From assembly GCA_031432545.1 (NCBI GenBank), contig JAVKGX010000009.1, positions 1 through 64,000 of the forward strand: 64,000 nucleotides of DNA. The letters are read 5' to 3'. Both the position numbers and the translations under genes were made by a program. The DNA is from Armatimonadota bacterium (lineage in GTDB: Bacteria > Sysuimicrobiota > Sysuimicrobiia > Sysuimicrobiales > Sysuimicrobiaceae). Under the pieces are notes generated by a model. It was not told the origin of the DNA, ran no database searches, and saw only the letters and a list, made by a program, of their open reading frames with translations. How positions within the stretch are numbered: the stretch's first letter is position 1; each line of letters opens with the position of its first letter. Positions 8,531 through 59,808 of the stretch are shown here, piece by piece.

Positions 8531-8557
8531 CGCCCACCTCCGCGCACGTCTTGTCCC

Positions 8558-8581
8558 ATTATACCATACCGAGTGTAGTAT
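8558..8581 (-). promoter_or_regulatory. Minus-strand promoter (-10 TATAAT) with second CstR-type operator
   Basis: On the minus strand TATAAT (8558-8563) is a perfect -10 box for the DUF2892-OsmC unit; the -35 is weak (CTCAAA, 17-bp spacer). The 21-bp element 8561-8581 starts ATACCATAC and ends GTGTAGTAT. It is itself an imperfect inverted repeat (7 of 9) and matches the 6626-6646 element at 16 of 21 positions. It also lies upstream of the nitric oxide reductase reading frame, so one site could control both directions. Confidence 0.7.
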
Positions 8582-8597
8582 TTGAGGCATCTCCCCC

Positions 8598-8610
8598 TGT
8601 ACCTGGTACC
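8598..8610. repeat. Single copy of the 13-bp GTACC repeat
   Basis: TGTACCTGGTACC matches the repeat unit found in tandem at 10845-10914 and 18201-18242. It lies in the leader between the operator at 8561-8581 and the start of the nitric oxide reductase frame. Confidence 0.6.
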
Positions 8611-8649
8611 GCAGGACCTCCCACATGGGCCGGAGAAGCCAAACATCGC

Positions 8650-10845
8650 ATGCGTCTGACCCTTCGCCAGGTCAACTTACTTCTGCTCGGCGTCGTGGTC
8701 CTAAGTGCTCTGGTCCTGACCTGGGGCACCGTGGAGACGTATCGCCACCTCCCGCCGCTGCCCGAACTCTTCACCACCGGTGACGAAACGGTGCTGTTCA
8801 GGCGCGAAGACATCCGCGCCGGCCAGCGGGTCTTCCAGCGCCGCAACCTAATGGGTTTCGGGACGCTGTTCGGCAACGGCAGCTACTTCAGGCCGGATTT
8901 CGGGGCAGAGTACTTAGCATTCTTGCGGGATCACGTCGCGGATCAGTTCGCCCGAGAACAAGTGGGATGACCGTTCCGCGACCTTTCGCCGGGCGATCCT
9001 CCACATAGCACGAGTGGGCACCAACCAGGTCTCCCTGCCCGACGAGTGGAGCGAGGCGCACCAGGCCTTCGCGGAGTTCTATCATCGGCGCTTCGTGGCG
9101 GGCGATCGGGCGCTGGGGATTGCCCCGGGGACCCTCCAACCCGACGAGGTCCGGCCTCTCGCTGCGTTTGTGGCATGGACGGCGTGGGTATCCTTCACCG
9201 CCCGCCCGGGATCTGACGGCTCGTACACCAACAACTTCCCGCCCATGCCGGATCTCGGTCTGGTCCCCACCGGGCAGACCATCCTGTGGACTGCGTGGTC
9301 CGTGGGATGGTTCCTGCTCCTGGCATTCTTGGTGGTCCTGGCCTTCGGAGCGGTGGATCTGGAACCCATCCCCGTACTTCCGTCCGTCGAGGAGCGGGCG
9401 GAGGGTTCGCCCGGTTTTCTGGCCCGGGTGACGCTGCTGCTGATGGGCGGCTGTTTTTTCATCTTTGCTCCTCCAGACGTTGGCAGGCGGTTATCTTGCG
9501 AACGCCTACGCCTCGCGTGAGGACTTCTACGGGGTGTTCTCGGGGTTGGGCCTCGAGCGCATGGCAGTCCTTCCCTTCCAAGCCGTCCGGTCAGCGCACA
9601 CCGCGATGGCCGTGGTCTGGGTGGTGGGTCTGTGGATGTCCGCAGCCCTGTACGCGGCTCTCCTGTTGGGCGGACGGGAGCGCCCGTGGCACAAGCCGGC
9701 CGCCTACGTGTCCATCGCGATCCTCGCTGTGAGCGTGGTCGGCACGCTGCTGGGTGTGTACGCCAGCGTCCGCGGGTGGGTGGACTCGCCGCTGGTGGGC
9801 AGCGAGGGGACGGAGTACCTGAAGATGGGGCGGCTGTGGCGGGCGGGCATCGCGGCGGGCTTCACCTTGTGGGTGGTGGTCCTCGCCTCTACCCTGAGGG
9901 GCGCTGAGGTGCGCTGGCGGCCACTGTTGCAGGTCCTGCTGTGGAACGGAGCCGGCATCACCGCGGCGCTCTATGCCAGCTTCGCCTACGGCCCGATAGC
10001 CACTGGGTGGTGGTGGACTTCTGGCGGTGGTGGGTGGTCCACCACTGGGTCGAAGGGATTTTCGCCTTTTCCAGATCCTCGTGTTCGGGTGGTTCTTCGC
10101 GGGACTGGGACTGGTAAGCCGCGAGGACGTGACAAAGAGCCTGTACCTGGAAGGCGGCCTGGTCCTCCTCGCGGGCTTTTTGGCCATCGGCCACCACTTC
10201 TGGTGGGTCAGCCAGCCGCCGCTGCGGCTGGGGGTGGGTAGCGTCTTCAGCACCCTGGAGGTGCTCCCGCTGTTCCTCCTGCTGAGCACTGCCCTGCGGG
10301 CGGGTCGCCGTGGCGTACACGTACGTCCCTCGCTTCGTTGGCCGTTGTGGTTCTTCGTGGCCAGTGCCATCTGGCAGTTTTTGGGTTCGGGGATCCTCGG
10401 GCTGCTGATCAACCTCCCCGTGGTGAACTGCTATGAGCACGGCACCTTCCTGACCGTCGCGCACGGCCACGCCTCATTCCTCGGCGCGTTCGGCTTCGTG
10501 GCCGTGGGCATGGGACTCTATGCGGTGCGGCACGCATGTCCCGACGGCTGGAGTGACCGCAGGGTGGCCGCGGCGTTCTGGGCTCTCAATGTGGGGCTGT
10601 TCCTCATGGTCTTTCTTAGCGTGACGCCGCTAGGGGTCATGCAACTCTCCGAGGCGGTACGTGTCGACTATGCGGCGGCCCGCAGCCTGCAGTTCTACCA
10701 GCGGCCCGAGGCACTGCTCCTCAACAAGTTACGGCTTCCAGGCGATGCCCTGATCATCGTCGGGGCGGCAGCCTTGGTCGCTGAGATACTCCCCAAGCTG
10801 CTCCGAATCCTCGACTTGCTCAAGCCGGCTCGAAGGAGCTCCTAG
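8650..10845 (+). pseudogene. Quinol-dependent nitric oxide reductase (qNOR), four frameshifts
   Basis: Read across frames, this is a full-length qNOR (about 730 residues, NorB/NorZ type) that would reduce NO to N2O in the membrane using quinol. It has the extra N-terminal quinol-enzyme segment with YTNNFPP, then the heme-copper-family core: HHWVEG, GHHFWW and HGHASFLG supply the FeB and heme ligands and the FeB glutamate. The frame is broken near 8959 (+1), 9465 (+1), 9992 (-1) and 10063 (-1, in a T run). No stop lies between shifts in the correct frames. Each break is a single base and the rest of the window is intact, so recent decay is likelier than assembly error, though the latter is possible. 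The final frame ends at TAG 10845. Confidence 0.85.
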
Positions 10846-49910: not shown

Positions 49911-50876
49911 TCAGTGGCGGCGCGCGACGACGAACTCGGTGAGGGCGGCCAGGCTGTCGCGGGCGGCGCTGGGCGGAAAGCGAGCCAGCACGTCGAGGGC
50001 GCGCTCGGCGTGCTGGCGGGCGACGTCCAGGGCGTAGGCGATCGAGCCGTGGCGGCCCAGGATCTCGCGCACAGCGTCTGCGGCTGCACCGTCCCGGATC
50101 AGGGCCTCCAGGCGCGCCCGATCGTCGGGCGTCCCGCTGCGCAGGGCGTGGATCAGCGGAAGGGTGACCTTTCCGCCCCGGACGTCGCTGCCGATCGGCT
50201 TGCCCAACACCTCGGGGTTACTGGTGAGATCCAGTGTGTCGTCGGTGATCTGGAACGCCACGCCCCAGTGCCTCCCGAATGTCTCCAGGCAGGCGGCCGT
50301 GTGCGCGTCGGCACCGGCGACCGCCGCTCCGCCGGCGCAGGCGGAGGCGATCAGCTGCGCCGTCTTGCCCTCGACGATCGTGAAGTAGACCTGCTCGTCG
50401 GTGTGCGGCGTGTTGCCGTAGCGGATCTGCAACAGTTCCGCCTGGCTCATGCGCACCGTAGCCAGCGCCATGCGCGGGGCGACGTCGGCGCGCCTCACGC
50501 GGGCCAGCATGTGGAAGGCCTTGCTGAACAGGTAGTCGCCCAGCAGCACCGCGACGTGGTTGCCCCACCGCGCGTTGGGCGTCGACTGCCCGCGGCGACG
50601 GTCGGCTTCGTCGATGACGTCGTCGTGGATCAGTGAGGCGACGTGGATCAGCTCAACCGCACCGGCGACCAGGCGGCGGTCGTCGCCGGCCCCACCCACG
50701 ATCTGCGCGCACAAAAACACCAGGGCCGGCCGCACCATCTTGCCGCGCGTCTGCAACACGTGGGCCACAAGCTCCGCCAGGAAGGGCTCGCCCGCCGTCA
50801 ACTCGTCCCGGAGCAGTCCGTGCAGATCGTCTAGGTCACGGCGGATGGGCGCGTAGGCGGCGACCAGGGGATCCAT
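49911..50876 (-). CDS. Long-chain polyprenyl diphosphate synthase
   Basis: 321 residues. First Asp-rich motif DDVID (85-89) and second DDTLD (212-216), GKMVRP early, and Ala five residues before the first Asp motif, which allows long chains (C35 or longer). Supplies the side chain of menaquinone. It directly follows the electron-transfer genes. Confidence 0.9.
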   Translation of the reverse strand: MDPLVAAYAPIRRDLDDLHGLLRDELTAGEPFLAELVAHVLQTRGKMVRPALVFLCAQIVGGAGDDRRLVAGAVELIHVASLIHDDVIDEADRRRGQSTPNARWGNHVAVLLGDYLFSKAFHMLARVRRADVAPRMALATVRMSQAELLQIRYGNTPHTDEQVYFTIVEGKTAQLIASACAGGAAVAGADAHTAACLETFGRHWGVAFQITDDTLDLTSNPEVLGKPIGSDVRGGKVTLPLIHALRSGTPDDRARLEALIRDGAAADAVREILGRHGSIAYALDVARQHAERALDVLARFPPSAARDSLAALTEFVVARRH

Positions 50877-50886
50877 CCCGTCTCAT

Positions 50887-51450
50887 CTAGGGACTCTGTC
50901 TGCCCAGGCGCTTCAGGTACTCGACCAGCGCCCACACCTGCTCGTCGGAAAGTGCCGCGAACGCCGGCATCCCGCTCCGGCGGGGTGTGGTGCCCAGACC
51001 GTGCCGGATGACCCAGTGGCTGACCCCGCGGGGGGTTTCCAGGAACGCGGGGCTGTGGAAGCTCATCGGCGGCGGGTTGAGCGTCGCGCCGGCCGGGCCG
51101 TCGCCGCGTCCGGTCGGACCGTGGCAGACGGCGCACAGCGCCCGGTACTGACTCTCCGCGTCTGCGAGCATCGCCTCGGTGATCTCTGTGGGCGGCTCAT
51201 CGTCGCGCGCGTCCGCCGGCACCACCTCGACGATCGCGCGCATCTGATCCGCGTGCGGATCCTCCGCCACACCCGGCGCCCTCGAGACGCCCGGAATCTG
51301 GCGGGCAACGGGGCTGACCTCCGGCGCCACGAGTCCGCCGGCCACGAACAGGTACGCCGCCGCCCACACCGGCAGCAGGACGTACAGCACCAGCAGACCG
51401 CGCGGTGGGCGGTGGCCGGAAGGTTGCGTAGGAGGCGTGGGTTCTGCCAT
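50887..51450 (-). CDS. Membrane-anchored mono-heme cytochrome c
   Basis: 187 residues. One N-terminal membrane helix (about 18-40), a linker, then a class I cytochrome c with heme site CAVCH and axial Met in SGMPAF. Electron carrier or oxidase-type subunit in the periplasm. Possibly takes the CcoP role. Six nt after the CcoO-like gene. Confidence 0.9.
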   Translation of the reverse strand: MAEPTPPTQPSGHRPPRGLLVLYVLLPVWAAAYLFVAGGLVAPEVSPVARQIPGVSRAPGVAEDPHADQMRAIVEVVPADARDDEPPTEITEAMLADAESQYRALCAVCHGPTGRGDGPAGATLNPPPMSFHSPAFLETPRGVSHWVIRHGLGTTPRRSGMPAFAALSDEQVWALVEYLKRLGRQSP

Positions 51451-51456
51451 GTCAGT

Positions 51457-51924
51457 TCACTTCAGACTCAACAGGTAGGCCGCCAGCACGCGCAGTTCTT
51501 CGTCCGAGAGGTGCGCGTAGGACGGCATTCGCGACCCAGGCGTTCGCTCGGAGGGAGCGCGCAGCAGCGCGATGATCTCCTGGGCCCCCTCGATGCGCGC
51601 GCCCACCCGCAGCAGGTCCGGCCCCACGCGCCGCCCGCCCAGCAGGGCGGGGGTCTGTCCGGCGTAGGCGGCGAAGTCCGCCGCCTGTCCGATGTCGCCG
51701 GGTTCGGCGATCATCCCGAACCTCGACTCGATCGTGCGCACCTGCTGGGTGTGGCAGACCATGCAGTTCTCCCGCACGTAGACGGCCCTGCCGGCTTCCT
51801 GCTCCCGAGTCAGGGCGGGCCCCGGAGCGGCCGGTCCGACGGAGGGCAGGGCGACCGTGGCCACAAACCCGCTGACCGTGGCCACCACGGCGAACAGCAC
51901 GATCGGGCGGACGCTCAGCTGCAC
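51457..51924 (-). CDS. CcoO-like mono-heme cytochrome c
   Basis: 155 residues. One membrane helix, then GRAVYVRENCMVCHTQQVRTIESRFG, the typical FixO/CcoO heme site, PDLLRVGARIEG and RMPSYAHLSDEEL with the axial Met. In cbb3 oxidases CcoO binds CcoN. Here the CcoN-like neighbour lacks metal ligands, so the pair may carry electrons elsewhere. Confidence 0.88.
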   Translation of the reverse strand: MQLSVRPIVLFAVVATVSGFVATVALPSVGPAAPGPALTREQEAGRAVYVRENCMVCHTQQVRTIESRFGMIAEPGDIGQAADFAAYAGQTPALLGGRRVGPDLLRVGARIEGAQEIIALLRAPSERTPGSRMPSYAHLSDEELRVLAAYLLSLK

Positions 51925-51946: not shown

Positions 51947-53362
51947 TCATGTACCCGCCTCCCCCACCAGCCTCGCCTGCGCCGGCGGGGACAGGTCGCG
52001 CTCGGCAGCCGACGCCGGTTCGCCGGAATCCACGGTCAAAAAGACGTTCCAGGCGAACAGTGCCTGCCCGGTGAGGAGCAGACCGGCCGAGACCGCGTAC
52101 ACGACGAGAAACGGCGAGACCGCCGCGGCTCCGTGGGCGAAGGGTACGGTGCCCGTCGCCCACACCGCTCCCTGACTCAGTCCGGCGAAAAGCAGCGTCA
52201 ACCCGCCGACCGCCCACCCCGCCACCGTCGATCCCACCTGCCACCACGCCAGGGTGCGACTCGCCAGCGCCCGGCCGACGAGGGAGGGCAGCATCGCGTA
52301 CGCCGCCCCCACGGCGATCGAGAGAATCCCGCCGAGCCACAACAACCGTTGACCCTCGACCCACAGCGTCAGGTTCACCACCCGACTGGGGCCCAAGAGG
52401 CCGTGGACCGCACCGACCGACGCTGAGCCGGCCAGCGCGAACGCCCCCACGGTGAACAGCATCAGCGTCGGGCTGGCGCAGGCGGCCGTCCACCTGCCCC
52501 CCACCGTCGTCCACACCACCACGAGCAACGTCGCGGCGGGCAGGACCAGCAGCAGCGACGCGACAGCCCCGACGGTCTGCGTCCAGAACGGAACCGGCCC
52601 CCACACGAACGCGGCGGGCCCGGCGAGCGGGGCGAACGCGAGGATGCCCAGCAGCGCCGCGGCCGGCAGCGCGGCCGCGAAGACCGCGCGGCCCGCGGCC
52701 ACGGGGACCAAGGCCACCAGGACACCGCCGGACAATATGCCCAGCCACAGCCAGTTCAGACCCGACTGCAAGAACGCCTGCGCCAGCGCGTCCGGCACAC
52801 CGGCGTACGGATTGGCAAACGGCGAGAACAGACCCTTTCCGAGCAACAGCACCAGCGGGAAGGCCACCAGTGCGCTGGCGAAGTACCAGGCCGGCGGCTC
52901 CACGGCCGCCGCGCTCACCGTCCGCCACACCACCCACAGCAGCAGCAACCCGGCCACCACCCGCAGCAGGTCGGCCGGCCACGGCGCCTCGCCGAACGCG
53001 CGCCCGCGGGTCCAGCCCACGGTCAGGTACCACCACGCGAGCACCTGCGCGACGGTCCACAGCCAGAAAGCGAGGTTGGCGGTCCTCTCCCCCCACAGGT
53101 GTCCGCGCGCGGACTGGGGCGCCAGCCTCAGGACCGCGGCGATCAGCAGGTGCGAGCAGGCACCGAAGATCCACACGTCGCGGCTGACCGCGACCAGCCG
53201 ACCGTGGGACGACCAGGCACTGCCCGCCAAAAAGCCCGGCCAGGCCAGCTGCGCGGCGATCAACAGTTCGTAGATTGCGCCCACCAACGCCCAGGCCGTG
53301 CCGAGGTAGGCGAACCGGCGGGCGGCGCTCCACTGTTCGTCGCTCAACATCCACGCGAGCAA
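51947..53362 (-). CDS. CcoN-like (heme-copper oxidase subunit I-like) protein lacking metal ligands
   Basis: 471 residues, about 12 membrane helices. It aligns by eye with CcoN: GRLVAVSRDVWIFG against the segment with the first low-spin heme His (here S60), PYAGVPDALAQAF, VPVAAGRAVF, and LWVEGQRLLWLGG followed by MLPSLVGR against the segment with the two heme-ligand His (here Q338, L340). The only histidines are 53, 71, 88, 320 and 410. None falls in 89-319, where the CuB ligands should be. It therefore cannot hold the heme b/b3-CuB centre as known. Perhaps a structural or quinone-binding subunit. Confidence 0.75.
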   Translation of the reverse strand: MLAWMLSDEQWSAARRFAYLGTAWALVGAIYELLIAAQLAWPGFLAGSAWSSHGRLVAVSRDVWIFGACSHLLIAAVLRLAPQSARGHLWGERTANLAFWLWTVAQVLAWWYLTVGWTRGRAFGEAPWPADLLRVVAGLLLLWVVWRTVSAAAVEPPAWYFASALVAFPLVLLLGKGLFSPFANPYAGVPDALAQAFLQSGLNWLWLGILSGGVLVALVPVAAGRAVFAAALPAAALLGILAFAPLAGPAAFVWGPVPFWTQTVGAVASLLLVLPAATLLVVVWTTVGGRWTAACASPTLMLFTVGAFALAGSASVGAVHGLLGPSRVVNLTLWVEGQRLLWLGGILSIAVGAAYAMLPSLVGRALASRTLAWWQVGSTVAGWAVGGLTLLFAGLSQGAVWATGTVPFAHGAAAVSPFLVVYAVSAGLLLTGQALFAWNVFLTVDSGEPASAAERDLSPPAQARLVGEAGT

Positions 53363-53421: not shown

Positions 53422-53541
53422 TCATGCCTCCGCGACCAGACCGAAGGCGGCCACGAACAGCAGCAGCGCGAAGAACAGCAGGTAGAAGACTGCGTACCAG
53501 ATATAGGACTTCAGCTTCCGGGGCCCGAACCGCCCGATCAC
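53422..53541 (-). CDS. 39-residue single-helix membrane protein
   Basis: GTG start overlapping the TGA of the MvhD-like gene (GTGA, 53538-53541). FGPRKLKSYIWYAVFYLLFFALLLF and an acidic end: basic membrane-proximal part then one helix. Looks like a small accessory subunit of the electron-transfer complex. Family not recognised. Confidence 0.6.
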   Translation of the reverse strand: MIGRFGPRKLKSYIWYAVFYLLFFALLLFVAAFGLVAEA

Positions 53542-53981
53542 TTCTTCTCCTCCGCCCAGATCCGCAGGACCTCCTCCCGGAACGACCGCACCGCGTCGAT
53601 GAACTCCCTGCGGTCGTGCAGTCCGTAGGCCAAGAACCCGATGCGCGCGGGGTTCACCTTCTGCCGCTGCAACCGCTTGCGCAGCGCCTCGATGCGATCC
53701 TCGATGATCCAGTTGCCCTCGCGGTTCAGACAGTCGCCCATCGGGCACCCGCACACGAACGTACCGGCAGCGCCGCTGCGAAGTGCCAGCTCCAGCCACG
53801 CCGGCTTGACGAAGCCCGAGCAAGGCACGCGGATGAGCACGACGTCCGGGAGGGTGACCATGGTGCCGTCCGGGTTCAGCAGGCCTTCGCTGCTGACCGC
53901 CCAGTCGCACAGGAACCCGACCACGCGGCCGGCCGGTTGGCTCTTGGACTTGTCCTGCACCACAGGCTCGACGCTGTCCAT
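53538..53981 (-). CDS. MvhD/FrhD-type [2Fe-2S] subunit
   Basis: 147 residues from the ATG at 53981. Five cysteines (25, 54, 77, 79, 84) in the pattern of the hydrogenase/heterodisulfide-reductase delta subunit: FLCDW, PCSG, CGCPMGDC, then NREGN. MvhD links a hydrogenase or formate dehydrogenase to HdrA. No HdrABC or hydrogenase is in the window; here it sits behind a cytochrome b-ferredoxin fusion. Confidence 0.88.
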   Translation of the reverse strand: MDSVEPVVQDKSKSQPAGRVVGFLCDWAVSSEGLLNPDGTMVTLPDVVLIRVPCSGFVKPAWLELALRSGAAGTFVCGCPMGDCLNREGNWIIEDRIEALRKRLQRQKVNPARIGFLAYGLHDRREFIDAVRSFREEVLRIWAEEKK

Positions 53982-53988
53982 CCTCACC

Positions 53989-55164
53989 TCACGCCGTGAC
54001 CGCCGCCCCGGCGCCGGCACGGATCTGTGCCTGCACGTCCCGTTCGAGCAGGCGCGGCAGCTCCAGCGCCTCGAAGGGACAAGCGCCGATGCAGATCCCG
54101 CACTCCACGCAGCGCGGATCCACGACCACGGCCAGCAGCTTGCGGTTCGCCGCGGCCTTGCTCTTGCCCGGGTACGGGCTGGGCACCATGTAGATCGCGT
54201 TGTACGGACAGTCGAAGTAGCACAGCTCGCAGCCGGTGCAGTTCTCGTCGACGACCACCGCCTGTCCCAACCCGCGCAGCCCGCGCTCTTGGGGCGTCTC
54301 GCGCAGGGAATACGGGATGTACATTCCGTACGCCACGAGCGCGGCGACCAGCGCGAGCGCCCACCCCGGCGCGATCCATCGCGCCAGCACGTAGGGCCAC
54401 AGGTAGAACCAGTCGACCTCGAAGCCTTCGGGCGTCGCCCCCGGCTGCGCCGGCGGCCCGCTCGCCGCGGGAATCGCTGCGGCCAGCACGAAGATCAACC
54501 CGATCCCGAACAAGACCCACAGCGCCGGCGGCCAGACCTTCGGGTGGCGCAGCCGCACGTAGTGCCACCACAGGAGGATGTACAGCGTCATCGCCGGCGC
54601 GATGTGCAGGAAGAGGAACCGCACGATCGTCGCATCGCTCAGCCCCGGTCCACCCAAAAACGCGTGCGCCAGCCAGCCGCCGATCAGCGGTACGCTCTGC
54701 AGTGCCTGCACCGTCATGCTCGTCAGCAACTGGGAGCGCTGATCCCACACCAGCAGATATCCGGTAACGCCCGCGATGCCCGAGAACACCAGCAGCACCA
54801 TCCCCGACAACCACTGGCTGTCGCGCGCTTCGCGGTAGCGGTCCGTAAACCAGTTCCGGAACAGGTGCAACAACACGGCCACGATGTACGCGTCGGCTGC
54901 GTACCGGTGGATGCCGCGGAAAATTACCCCGTAGGGCACCTGGTCCGAGAGGAACTGCACCGAGGCGTACGCGCCTTCCAGGCTGGGCTCGTAGTACAGC
55001 CAAATCAGGATCCCGGAGACGACCAGGACGGTCAGGAACAGGTTGCTCAGCCCGCCCGTATAGTACAGGGGGTTGAAGTCCTGCGGGTATACGCGGTTGA
55101 TCGCCACGTCCACTTTGAGCGTGGCGCTCTGGATCCTCTGCAGCAGCGGCCGGTACACCGTCAC
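53989..55164 (-). CDS. Cytochrome b fused to a 2x[4Fe-4S] ferredoxin
   Basis: 391 residues, GTG start overlapping the previous stop. N-terminal cytochrome b6-type four-helix part with both heme pairs: H86/H100 and H187/H201. Then a subunit-IV-like piece with VDWFYLWPY in place of PEWY and a further helix. The C-terminal 85 residues are a ferredoxin with C309, C312, C315, C319 and C352, C355, C358, C362. A cytochrome b wired to iron-sulfur clusters suggests electron exchange between quinone and a soluble low-potential donor. Confidence 0.92.
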   Translation of the reverse strand: MTVYRPLLQRIQSATLKVDVAINRVYPQDFNPLYYTGGLSNLFLTVLVVSGILIWLYYEPSLEGAYASVQFLSDQVPYGVIFRGIHRYAADAYIVAVLLHLFRNWFTDRYREARDSQWLSGMVLLVFSGIAGVTGYLLVWDQRSQLLTSMTVQALQSVPLIGGWLAHAFLGGPGLSDATIVRFLFLHIAPAMTLYILLWWHYVRLRHPKVWPPALWVLFGIGLIFVLAAAIPAASGPPAQPGATPEGFEVDWFYLWPYVLARWIAPGWALALVAALVAYGMYIPYSLRETPQERGLRGLGQAVVVDENCTGCELCYFDCPYNAIYMVPSPYPGKSKAAANRKLLAVVVDPRCVECGICIGACPFEALELPRLLERDVQAQIRAGAGAAVTA

Positions 55165-55361
55165 TCCTCGGCCGTGATGTGTGCCTTCCGGAACAGCAGC
55201 ACGACGAACGAGTAGATGATGAGCAGCACGCCCAGCGCGCCGGCGCCGACCCGGCGGTGGTCGAACCACTCGCCGTAGACGATCAGTGCCACGCACAGCA
55301 GCGCCGCCATCGCCAGCAGGACGATGAGCGCCATGTACACGACCGCGCGTGAGCGTTCCAC
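55161..55361 (-). CDS. Small two-helix membrane protein
   Basis: 66 residues; ends by overlapping the following GTG start (GTGA). Two hydrophobic helices with a GEWFDHRR loop. Conserved-looking small accessory subunit of the complex; family not recognised. Confidence 0.7.
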   Translation of the reverse strand: MERSRAVVYMALIVLLAMAALLCVALIVYGEWFDHRRVGAGALGVLLIIYSFVVLLFRKAHITAEE

Positions 55362-55364
55362 GGC

Positions 55365-55613
55365 CTATGACCCTCTACCCAGGAATCTCTCGTACAGTCG
55401 CAGGCGGCGGCGCAACTTCCCAGCAGCCCGATCCGTTGCGTAGATCAAGAAGCCCGCGTACAGGAACGCCCCGACGAGCAGCGCGGTCCACCCGACTGCC
55501 GCGGCCCACGCGACCGCGGTCTGCACCGCCACCGCCTCACTGTAGGCGCCGAACACCTGCTTGAACGCCACGACCGCGGCTGCAAACGCCATGACGAACA
55601 TCACGCCGCGCAC
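55365..55613 (-). CDS. Small membrane protein
   Basis: 82 residues, two hydrophobic helices and a basic C-terminal tail (RRRLRLYERFLGR). 3 nt before the 55.2-kb gene and 4 nt after the cytochrome b gene, so it is part of the same transcript. Family not recognised. Confidence 0.7.
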   Translation of the reverse strand: MRGVMFVMAFAAAVVAFKQVFGAYSEAVAVQTAVAWAAAVGWTALLVGAFLYAGFLIYATDRAAGKLRRRLRLYERFLGRGS

Positions 55614-55617
55614 CGCC

Positions 55618-56772
55618 CTACCCTGCCGTCGGCGCCGGCCGCGCCCCCACCACGCGGGGCGGCGGCTTCGGCGCCGCCGCTTCTGCCGCCCGCCGGCGGC
55701 GCCGGTACCGCAACTCGAGCAGCAATCCGATCACGAGCACCACGCTGGTCATCACCAGGACGATGTGCGGATCCCGGTCGATGACTGCGATGTTGAACAT
55801 GATCAGCGTTGTGAACACCACGAAGTACGTGAGGGCCATGACGCCGACCACCGTGAAGAAGGGGCGTTCGGACGGTCGGCGGCCCTTGCTGCGGTCGAGG
55901 AACGGGACGAGCATCCCGTAGGTGATGAGGAATCCCGGCCCCAGTCCGGCCCACAGCGGCGGGGTGTACTTCACGTACTGGTACAGCGCCAAGAAGTACC
56001 AGTCCGACAGGATCGGCAGCGGCGTCCGGTTCGGGTCGGCGCGCCGGCCCATCTCGGCGGGGAAGATGTAGCTGGTGGCGACGATCATCAGCAGCAAGAC
56101 GACGATCGCCGTCGGCGAGAGCCCGAAGCGCTTGCGCCGAGTGAAGATGAAGTACAGTTCTACGGCGATCAGCAACAACGCGGAGATCCCGAAATGGATC
56201 GCGTAAAAACGCGTCAGCGCCCCCTGCCCGACCGCCGGGCCGCCGAGGAAGATGAAGGCGATCGCGCTGCCGAACTTGCTCGCACCGATGATCGGAATTT
56301 GGTCTAGGTAGACCGCGACGCTGAGCACGGTCTTGGCTGCCCAGAACGCGCGCTGGTTCCAGATCAGCAGATAGCCCGTGATCCCGGAGATCATCGCCAG
56401 CACAAGGGACGCGAACAGGATCATCCACGTCAACTCGTTCGGGCGCTTGTACTCGCCGAGGAAGTACATGCGGTAGATCCGCAGCATGATCGCGAGGATC
56501 AGCATATCTGCGGCGTACTTGTGGGCGCCCCGGATCAACCAGCCCAAAGGCACCTCATGCTGGATGCGCAGGATGGAGTTGTACGCGCCGTGGGTCGTCG
56601 GCTCGTACCAGATCATCAGCAAAACACCCGTGACGAAGACCACGATCCAGGAGAAGTAGACGATGTGGCCCAGCGCGTACAGCGGGTTGTCCAGCCGGTC
56701 GACGTTGGTCTCGTCGAAGAGGTCGAGCTTCTCCTTGCGCTCGCGCAGCCACTCCCGTACGCGGTCGAGCAT
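55618..56772 (-). CDS. Cytochrome b (Rieske/cyt b complex) lacking second heme-ligand pair
   Basis: 384 residues from the ATG at 56772. About eight or nine membrane helices; a cytochrome b6-type part fused to a subunit-IV-like part with SDWY at the PEWY position. Heme ligands H84 and H193 (the bL pair, p-side) are present. The bH partners, 14 residues further in each helix, are R98 and Y207. By this reading it carries one heme. The companion cytochrome b at 54 kb keeps all four ligands. Confidence 0.9.
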   Translation of the reverse strand: MLDRVREWLRERKEKLDLFDETNVDRLDNPLYALGHIVYFSWIVVFVTGVLLMIWYEPTTHGAYNSILRIQHEVPLGWLIRGAHKYAADMLILAIMLRIYRMYFLGEYKRPNELTWMILFASLVLAMISGITGYLLIWNQRAFWAAKTVLSVAVYLDQIPIIGASKFGSAIAFIFLGGPAVGQGALTRFYAIHFGISALLLIAVELYFIFTRRKRFGLSPTAIVVLLLMIVATSYIFPAEMGRRADPNRTPLPILSDWYFLALYQYVKYTPPLWAGLGPGFLITYGMLVPFLDRSKGRRPSERPFFTVVGVMALTYFVVFTTLIMFNIAVIDRDPHIVLVMTSVVLVIGLLLELRYRRRRRAAEAAAPKPPPRVVGARPAPTAG

Positions 56773-56869
56773 CAGGACGGCCTCGGCGCTTCGGGGTCGG
56801 GGGTCGTCGTCTGCGGGTCCGCCGCGCCGGCGTGAAGGCAAGCCACGAACCGCAGGCCCCAGCTCGGGG

Positions 56870-57526
56870 TCATGCGATCCCTCCGGGCTCGGCGCTCGTG
56901 ATCACGATAACGCCGTCGCGGATCTCGTAGGTGAAGTAGTACGGCGGCCGTGGCGCCGGGCCGGAGAGGACCCGTCCCGGTCGGTCGCGGTCCGCGGGGT
57001 CGTAGATTGACAGGTGGCAGGGGCACGCCATCAGCCCGTGGCGCCGCTCCTCCGGCGGGACGTACCCTCCGTAGCCCGCGGTGACCTCCCGCCAGTTGGG
57101 CACGTAGTTGAAGATGCAGCCCAGGTGCGGACAGATCCGGGAGAAGATGACGATGTCGGTGGGTTCTTCGCCCTGCTTGAACCCGGGGAAGCTGACCTTC
57201 CACGGCAGCCTGATGGCCACGCCGGGGATCGTCGCCACGCGCGCCTGCTCGGGCGTGTACTGCGCGTAGCGCTGCGTGTACACGAAGATTCGCGACGACC
57301 ACGGTTCGGCGAGCTCCTCCACGCGTCCCAACGCCAGCTGCTCCCCCTGCGGGAGATCCATCTCCGCGAGACTGCGCAGCCGACCTTCCGGCAGCCCCAG
57401 CCCGGGGTCGAGGTTCGGCTTGAGATAGCGCAGTAACGGCGCCGCGAATGCCGCCAGCGCACCGAGCACGGGGATCGCGCTTAGCGCGCGCAGGAACGTG
57501 CGGCGGTTCACTCCCCTCTCGGCCAT
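56870..57526 (-). CDS. Rieske [2Fe-2S] protein
   Basis: 218 residues. Twin-arginine signal NRRTFLRAL followed by a membrane helix. Cluster ligands CPHLGC (132-137) and CPCH (168-171). An extra about 30-residue loop between the two. Quinol-oxidising subunit partnered with the cytochrome b next door. Export probably uses the Tat system. Confidence 0.95.
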   Translation of the reverse strand: MAERGVNRRTFLRALSAIPVLGALAAFAAPLLRYLKPNLDPGLGLPEGRLRSLAEMDLPQGEQLALGRVEELAEPWSSRIFVYTQRYAQYTPEQARVATIPGVAIRLPWKVSFPGFKQGEEPTDIVIFSRICPHLGCIFNYVPNWREVTAGYGGYVPPEERRHGLMACPCHLSIYDPADRDRPGRVLSGPAPRPPYYFTYEIRDGVIVITSAEPGGIA

Positions 57527-57542: not shown

Positions 57543-58403
57543 TCACCGCAGGTCTTCGGGAAGCGTGTAGACGAACGTCCACAGATAATCTACCACAGCC
57601 CAGATCTGGTCCGACGTCAGGCGATCTCCGTACGCAGGCATCAGCTCGATGCCACGGCGGTGCACGCCTTCGAACACCCGCTGGTAGAGCTCCGTCGGTT
57701 TGCGGTAGGCCATCCAGTCGCGGTCGGTGAAGATCCCGGGGCCCACGCCGCGACCCCACGTCCAGATCTCCTGGCGGATGCGAGCGGCCTCCGGACCGTT
57801 GCCGTCGCCGGATTCACCGTGGCAGGCGGCACACTGTTGCTGGTAGATGCGCCGACCCTCGGCGAGTTTGTCGCGCGTGGTCATGCGGCTCCACTCCCAG
57901 AACAGGACGTTCCAGATCTCTTGCTCGCTCAGCGGAGGGTCGGCGAGGCTGTCGGCGCCGTAGGCGGGGTGGCGGAAGCCCGGCATCGCGGTGTGCGGCC
58001 GACCGCGGTCGATCACCTCGAACATGGAAAAGGGCGTGTTGAGTCGCATCTGGTCGAGGTTGTCGAAGCGCGCAGGCCGGCTGGGAAGCGGTTCGCCCCT
58101 GGGGTGGATCCGGAAGATGCGCAGCACGTCCCGGTACGGGTCCTTCTCCGGGGCCACCAGCTGCGGCGCCATCGGTCCGTCGCCCCGGCCCTCGGGCCCG
58201 TGGCAGACGGCACAGCGCGCCTCGTAGACCCGCTTGCCTCCGTCGGCGTTGGGCTTTTGGGGAATGAAGTTCATCCGGTGGACGTAGCCGGCCAGCGGTT
58301 CGTAGGCGGGACGGTCGGGCGACCCGATCCGCACGTATGGCTGGCAGCCCACGAGCAACACCGACGTCGCCGCGATCAGCGCGGCGCCGGCAACTGGCCG
58401 CAT
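57543..58403 (-). CDS. Diheme cytochrome c lipoprotein
   Basis: 286 residues from the ATG at 58403. A lipobox VLLVGC, then two class I cytochrome c domains with CAVCH and CAACH, axial Met in AMPGF and LMPAYG. Electron acceptor of the Rieske/cytochrome b complex by position (17 nt before the Rieske gene). Confidence 0.9.
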   Translation of the reverse strand: MRPVAGAALIAATSVLLVGCQPYVRIGSPDRPAYEPLAGYVHRMNFIPQKPNADGGKRVYEARCAVCHGPEGRGDGPMAPQLVAPEKDPYRDVLRIFRIHPRGEPLPSRPARFDNLDQMRLNTPFSMFEVIDRGRPHTAMPGFRHPAYGADSLADPPLSEQEIWNVLFWEWSRMTTRDKLAEGRRIYQQQCAACHGESGDGNGPEAARIRQEIWTWGRGVGPGIFTDRDWMAYRKPTELYQRVFEGVHRRGIELMPAYGDRLTSDQIWAVVDYLWTFVYTLPEDLR

Positions 58404-58576: not shown

Positions 58577-58954
58577 CTACGTGTCCCGCTCGTACCGGGT
58601 CGGGCACTTCGCCAACAGCACCGTCGCGGCGAACACGCCGTCGCGGCGCAGCTGCCCCTCGACCACGACCTCCGCTTCGTCGGTGAACAGATCGGGCACC
58701 GTGCCCTGGTAGACCACCGGCAGCGCGATGCCTTCGTCACGCAGCGTGAACCGGATGCGCGACCCCTCGCGGCGGATCGATCCTGAGGCCACCGTCCCCG
58801 CGACCCGAGAGGGGACGTCCACGGCCGCCTCTCCCCTCTCGAGCAACTCCCCGACGGTGACATAGTACACGGCCGCCGAACGCACCCCGCCGTAGATCAG
58901 GTACGCGAGCGCGGCGACGATCACGGTCACCAGGACGGCGTAGCGGCGGTTCAT
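58577..58954 (-). CDS. ccmE: Heme chaperone CcmE, CxxxY variant
   Basis: 125 residues. N-terminal helix, OB-fold (VPSRVAGTVASGS, PVVYQGTVPDLF), and at the C-terminus CPTRY (C117-Y121) where most CcmE have HxxxY. This Cys variant is known from Desulfovibrio and archaea (system I*). It covalently holds heme before transfer to apocytochrome c. Confidence 0.93.
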   Translation of the reverse strand: MNRRYAVLVTVIVAALAYLIYGGVRSAAVYYVTVGELLERGEAAVDVPSRVAGTVASGSIRREGSRIRFTLRDEGIALPVVYQGTVPDLFTDEAEVVVEGQLRRDGVFAATVLLAKCPTRYERDT

Positions 58955-59139: not shown

Positions 59140-59808
59140 TCACGTCGCCAGCTCCGCCCGCATGCGCGCGACCTCCGCCCGGAGCAAAGCGATGCGCATC
59201 CGAACACCGAGCAGCACGGCGTACAAAAGCGAGAACGCGGCCAAGCAAACCAGCAGCGTGTACAGCATCTCCGGTTCCAGCCCGATGCCCTGACGTGTGA
59301 AGACGACCGGTGAGATCCCGCGCAGCAGCCGCGCGGAGAAGAACACGATCGGCACGTTCAGGAACGCAATGACCCCGAAGGCGGCCGCAAACCGCGCCCT
59401 TCGTTCATCGTCGGCGGCGCTACGCAGCAGCAGGTAGCCCATGTACATCAGCTGCATGATCAGCGTCGCCGTCACCTGCGGATCCCACGTCCACCACACG
59501 CCCCAGGTAGGCCTTGCCCAGATCGATCCGGTGACGATCACCAACCCGTTCATCCACACCCCGACCTCGGCGGACCCCGCGGCCAGTTCGTCCCACCATG
59601 TGCTGCGCGTGCGCAGGTACTGGATCCCGCCGACGAACACTCCGAAGAAAGCGACGAAGGCAACCCACGCCAGCGCGAGGTGGAAGTAGAAAATACGCTG
59701 GACCGGTCCCATGATCCGCTCGGTGGGCGCGTACAGGAAGACCATGTACAGGGAGGCGACCATCGCGACCACCAGCGTCCACCACAGCACGCTGTCGACG
59801 CGCCTCAC
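59140..59808 (-). CDS. ccmC: Heme handling protein CcmC
   Basis: 222 residues, six helices. WWD domain WGVWWTWDPQVT (102-112) and first heme His 43 (YFHLALAW). The second His usually follows in a WWxTLH segment; here the matching piece is RLLRGIS with Ser 166. GTG start overlaps the ccmB stop (GTGA). Confidence 0.93.
   Translation of the reverse strand: MRRVDSVLWWTLVVAMVASLYMVFLYAPTERIMGPVQRIFYFHLALAWVAFVAFFGVFVGGIQYLRTRSTWWDELAAGSAEVGVWMNGLVIVTGSIWARPTWGVWWTWDPQVTATLIMQLMYMGYLLLRSAADDERRARFAAAFGVIAFLNVPIVFFSARLLRGISPVVFTRQGIGLEPEMLYTLLVCLAAFSLLYAVLLGVRMRIALLRAEVARMRAELAT

Follow-up and report, generated by a model that had tools for sequence, protein, structure and literature searches.

A CcoN-like protein with a predicted haem-copper oxidase fold and none of the six histidine ligands, kept under selection in the operon of an unusual bc-type complex

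A six-histidine signature is taken as the distinguishing mark of the haem-copper oxidase superfamily, to which Ca. Methylomirabilis oxyfera contributes members with an altered metal site, its NO dismutases (qNOR-like NODs) (PMC3413370). The CuB ligands are His207, His257 and His258 in P. stutzeri CcoN numbering, and in the cbb3-type oxidase of Nitrospina gracilis, which belongs to the C family, the surroundings of the CuB site contain unusual residues (PMC3578206). In the bc1-cbb3 supercomplex of R. capsulatus, CcoN and CcoP helices line the interface (PMC7876108); the P. aeruginosa cbb3 structure 8smr, which is the best fold match reported below, is cited alongside that work for known bc1-cbb3 supercomplexes.

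The window, which is the whole stretch of DNA that was analysed (64,000 nucleotides of contig JAVKGX010000009.1, assembly GCA_031432545.1), contains an open reading frame at 51947..53362 on the minus strand that starts with TTG and encodes 471 aa with no interruption. The encoded protein matched PF00115 at 85.4 bits vs a gathering score of 34.8, and all nine members of the group described here matched the same profile at E 1e-3 or better. The score against TIGR00780 (ccoN) was 108.7 bits, which is below the equivalog cut-off of 583, and a search of PDB sequences returned cbb3 CcoN chains as the closest (9g6b, E 5e-27; 3mk7, E 4e-25), with 24% identity between the window protein and cbb3 CcoN. 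An AlphaFold model (33-row alignment; pLDDT 91) contained twelve long helices, and Foldseek analysis of the model gave P. aeruginosa cbb3 CcoN as the top match (8smr_E; TM 0.89, rmsd 1.7 Å), with P. stutzeri CcoN (3mk7_A) also at TM 0.89 and a range of 1.7-1.9 Å over both CcoN matches. The predicted structure confirmed the window protein as a full-length CcoN homologue with the 12-TM haem-copper oxidase fold, in keeping with the CcoN-like identity that the earlier note had proposed; the best fold match was CcoN and no unrelated membrane family.

In P. stutzeri CcoN, the haem ligands are H60, H345 and H347, where H60 and H347 form the bis-His pair of haem b and H345 is on b3. Alignment to this protein showed that the haem b ligand H60 is replaced by S60 in the window protein, that the CuB ligands H207, H257 and H258 are replaced by S200, A250 and A251, and that the b3/b HxH pair (345/347) aligns to EGQ-RLL, placing Q338 and, depending on one gap, R339 or L340 at these positions, none of which is His. 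The earlier note had set S60, Q338 and L340 at haem ligand positions and had found no His in 89-319; both statements stand, with the choice between L340 and R339 turning on that gap, and His is present in the window protein only at 53, 71, 88, 320 and 410. At the site of the helix VII active-site Tyr, Y251, the window protein has A244, and every one of the nine members has A or G there. The His sextet is absent (0/6) from the window protein and seven orthologues, and is reduced to 2/6 in the remaining member, from genome G011. R57, E122 and the channel position T215 are also replaced in all eight members of this inner clade and the other canonical channel positions, Y237 and S240, are gone, whereas E125, G54 and R55 are retained. 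Every covered His, together with Y251, is kept in all 34 comparison rows (approximately 30 distinct sequences, one without the N-terminal part).

Misalignment hiding a His was rejected, as MAFFT, phmmer and a gapless alignment of the G011 protein with a liganded homologue agree, and no conserved His reappeared at the ligand sites, the outcome that would have counted against the earlier note. Chance and assembly artefact were excluded because the same losses recur in the seven orthologues, all from independent assemblies. The substitutes at the lost sites vary between species (S, A or G at H60), as expected when a site is free of constraint, and the alignment contained no conserved His, Cys or Met common to all nine proteins that could act as a substitute ligand. 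Judged from these alignments, the CcoN-like protein is very probably haem-free in reality.

The gene is present in 9/43 genomes of the phylum, in three families of one order, and the seven orthologues are 49-57% identical to the window protein. The nine CcoN-like proteins form one clade with support of 100/100 in an unrooted tree, in which G011 (L014) branches first as sister to the other eight. The G011 protein retains the equivalents of H60 and H207, and also of R57 and E122, and its alignment with a liganded CcoN from an unrelated genome, G151 (35% identity, 258 bits), runs without a gap across all the ligand sites. As this basal member has two of the six His, the loss was stepwise. CcoN homologues at E 1e-45 or better were found in 55 other genomes among the 386 searched; those aligned keep the covered ligands, and homologues sampled outside the phylum have all six His where covered. 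A contig scan gave five loci, four of which were orthologues already counted and one a distant liganded homologue (L031), and no further orthologues were found around G074 and G090 (one genome each). The ancestry of the ligandless clade lies within liganded CcoN proteins, and the G151 protein is its neighbour in the unrooted tree.

The gene lies in an operon on the minus strand, in which all genes listed here are encoded. It begins with genes for a CcmC-like cytochrome c assembly protein (59140..59808; PF01578, 83.4 bits) and the cytochrome c maturation protein CcmE (58577..58954; PF03100, 92.9 bits), followed by a dihaem cytochrome c, a lipoprotein-like subunit with two stretches matching PF13442 (57543..58607; mature start probably near 58400), a Rieske iron-sulphur protein with both 2Fe-2S motifs, CPHLGC and CPCHLS (56870..57526), its partner cytochrome b (55618..56841; PF00033, 114 bits) and an 82-aa membrane protein, sTM, conserved in the phylum (55365..55613). 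Next are a second cytochrome b, fused to a ferredoxin domain of the 2x[4Fe-4S] type (53989..55296; PF00033, 106 bits, and Fer4; mature start probably near 55160), a FlpD/MvhD-like iron-sulphur protein (53538..54020; PF02662, 80.8 bits) and a 39-aa single-TM protein, sTM2 (53422..53541), whose start overlaps the FlpD stop and which is conserved in the phylum. sTM2 is also found in several genomes without the CcoN-like gene, and a similar segment is present in G151. The CcoN-like gene is followed by a CcoO-like gene, a cytochrome c gene and a polyprenyl diphosphate synthase gene (49911..50876; PF00348, 228 bits), which is the downstream operon border in all relatives checked. All eight relatives have the genes in this same order, as far as their contigs extend.

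The adjoining CcoO/FixO-like cytochrome c (51457..51924) has one N-terminal TM helix, the haem motif CMVCH and an axial Met in SRMPSY; it matched PF02433 at 71.3 bits (cut-off 29.6) and scored under the TIGR00781 cut-off. Its CxxCH is intact in 9/9 orthologues. In the CcoP position is a membrane-anchored cytochrome c (50887..51450; PF13442/PF00034) with one CxxCH, CAVCH, where CcoP would have two haems. The haem c motifs of both proteins are thus kept, and the earlier statement that the CcoN-like gene is coupled to an intact CcoO-like protein and another cytochrome c holds. In one genome, G008 (L030:9012-9485), the CcoO-like protein carries RVHGYG in place of the axial-Met motif of the others, RMPSY/GMPPY, and the axial ligand of its haem c may, from this motif, have changed. 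All nine loci have the CcoN-like, CcoO-like and cytochrome c genes together at this one place in the operon, and no match to any of the three was found from FlpD to the polyprenyl synthase in the same operon of eight genomes from families without the CcoN-like gene; being present together and absent together, the three genes behave as one module. In G151, liganded CcoN, CcoO/c, c, Rieske, cytochrome b, two sTM proteins, cytochrome b/ferredoxin and FlpD are encoded in one run. The phylum-wide bc-type operon, the two-His intermediate and this distant operon with an intact oxidase place the single gene to which the earlier note had drawn attention in a wider setting.

The bc-type complex, too, is out of the ordinary. 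The Rieske-partner cytochrome b has Arg for the second His of helix B and Phe or Tyr for the second His of helix D (the n-side haem ligands), leaving only the first His of each pair, and SDWYF replaces PEWY; the n-side ligand loss and SDWYF are found in every phylum member checked (orthologues include L096:15024-16250) and in G151. This subunit probably carries only one b haem. The second cytochrome b retains all four b-haem His and ends in two [4Fe-4S] motifs, with FlpD encoded next, and the cytochrome b-ferredoxin protein was matched in 37/43 phylum genomes. This protein may provide an exit for electrons on the n-side. A search of the genome for an HdrA partner for FlpD gave no HdrA2 match over cut-off, the highest scores falling on the FlpD and the ferredoxin domain of the operon itself.

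The whole genome was also searched for other oxidase components. The best match to the maturation protein CcoS/FixS scored 12.5 bits (cut-off 23.1). An active CcoN encoded elsewhere was rejected, as the other COX1 matches were an ordinary aa3-type oxidase with the usual GHPEVY, HH and HFH motifs, broken qNOR fragments and one sub-threshold match. The quinol-type nitric oxide reductase gene at 8551-10845 on the plus strand is split over three frames (a NorB cytochrome c-like domain and COX1 pieces), and reads as a broken gene or one with sequencing errors.

Constraint on the CcoN-like gene was estimated from dN/dS, which is given for close pairs as dS is near saturation in distant pairs. The values in three close pairs were 0.12, 0.18 and 0.22, about two to three times higher than those of the two neighbouring cytochromes b (0.04-0.09) and well below 1, so that the gene is under purifying selection, weaker than that on its neighbours. 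Identity of the CcoN-like proteins is likewise 49-57%, vs 67-84% for the bc core and FlpD. Across all nine CcoN-like proteins 80 columns are invariant. With helices assigned from the AlphaFold model and topology from CcoN precedent, the eight ligandless proteins have 45% of their periplasmic-loop positions invariant vs 17% in canonical CcoN of similar divergence, and the excess of invariant sites in the loops over the rest is significant (permutation p 0.0002); mid-membrane invariant positions amount to 18% in the ligandless proteins and 20% in canonical CcoN. On this model-based assignment, conservation in the CcoN-like proteins is shifted to the periplasmic loops.

We favour, with moderate confidence, the interpretation that the window protein derives from the catalytic subunit of a cbb3-type oxidase, lost its metals stepwise and was kept as a haem-free membrane platform, or scaffold, for cytochromes c beside the bc-type complex. 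A membrane platform is the best reading of a protein with no oxidase capacity and no replacement ligands whose linked cytochromes keep their haem motifs, and a scaffold role is further favoured by the strict linkage to two c-type cytochromes and by the movement of conservation to the periplasmic loops. The position of CcoN at the R. capsulatus bc1-cbb3 interface gives a structural role in a supercomplex a precedent, and a bc-type complex whose Rieske-partner cytochrome b has probably given up one haem already lends credibility to the idea of haem loss. Against this interpretation, the G008 CcoO-like protein is without the usual axial Met, and its role in electron transfer may also be weakening; moreover, genes linked in an operon need not encode a physical complex.

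Another active job for the haem-free protein, such as quinone or lipid binding or proton or ion conduction in the complex, would suit the intact 12-helix bundle and the invariant K176, D62, D131 and E125 in or near the membrane; however, the canonical channel positions T215, Y237, S240 and Y251 are lost and the mid-membrane is among the least conserved parts of the protein, making this explanation unlikely. A role in assembling or stabilising the CcoO-like cytochrome or the bc complex, without permanent membership as a subunit, is improbable: the gene is in a run with ccmC and ccmE and always beside CcoO, but ccm genes flank the operon also in genomes without the CcoN-like gene, and a 12-TM oxidase fold would be unusual for a chaperone. 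That the protein still binds a cofactor by way of other residues, be it haem, a chlorophyll-like molecule or a metal, is very doubtful, as the two most widespread His, H375 (8/9) and H410 (7/9), are replaced by Q in the window protein and by A in two members, respectively, and the residues at the lost sites follow no common pattern; a cofactor could, in principle, be held with no protein ligand at all. Faster evolution than most neighbours and stepwise ligand loss could also suggest a decaying pseudogene of an oxidase subunit, which was rejected as extremely improbable on the nine open frames in independent genomes of three families, the low dN/dS, the conserved loops and the invariant columns, and the gene is, as the earlier note had supposed, not decaying.

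Under the platform interpretation, the ancestor would have been the catalytic subunit of a cbb3-like oxidase in one electron-transfer unit with the unusual Rieske/cytochrome b complex, and an active oxidase coupled to a bc-type complex, with metals lost in one lineage, would be the simplest history. In that one clade both b haems and CuB would have been lost step by step. The 12-helix bundle and conserved periplasmic loops would probably hold the CcoO-like protein and the second cytochrome c beside the bc-type complex, in a putative bc-oxidase supercomplex. Electrons would pass from quinol to Rieske, to the dihaem cytochrome c, to the CcoO-like protein and cytochrome c, and on to an acceptor outside this unit, such as the aa3-type oxidase, whose presence elsewhere in the genome makes it a possible final acceptor. 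A more speculative proposal, put forward tentatively, sees in the operon a quinol-oxidising complex of a new kind. Its two cytochromes b would form a heterodimer, one subunit having a p-side haem only and the other passing electrons, on the n-side, to the ferredoxin domain and FlpD. The electrons of quinol would be divided between low-potential Fe-S carriers and cytochromes in the periplasm, with the metal-free CcoN as the docking subunit of the high-potential branch.

The carriers of ligandless CcoN are a group of hot-spring and lake bacteria, which automatic annotation based on PF00115 would wrongly credit with a cbb3 oxidase. The G151 operon, G011 and the inner clade form a natural series of six, two and no His, which allows the non-catalytic roles of an oxidase subunit, such as holding electron carriers and building supercomplexes, to be investigated.

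Literature searches found nothing comparable for haem-free oxidase subunits. In NO dismutases a single His of the six is missing, and these enzymes are believed to bind haems b and b3 and a metal nonetheless, whereas here all six are lost, and the Nitrospina gracilis oxidase, unlike the window protein, retains all three CuB His, has a fused CcoNOP and is presumed active. As in cytochrome bc/b6f complexes, a Rieske protein, cytochrome b6-type subunits and a dihaem cytochrome c are encoded in one operon; here, however, there are two different cytochromes b, one without n-side haem ligands and PEWY and the other with a ferredoxin domain and FlpD, plus a haem-free CcoN module. The closest likeness is to the CcoN of cbb3-type oxidases (P. 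stutzeri 3mk7, P. aeruginosa 8smr), with which the window protein shares the 12-TM fold, an adjoining CcoO-like gene and possible bc coupling, and from which it differs in lacking all six His ligands, the cross-linked Tyr and E122, in a genome with no dihaem CcoP at this locus and no CcoS above cut-off. The window protein and its orthologues thus represent, from their sequences, a haem-copper fold with none of the six His that is kept under selection.
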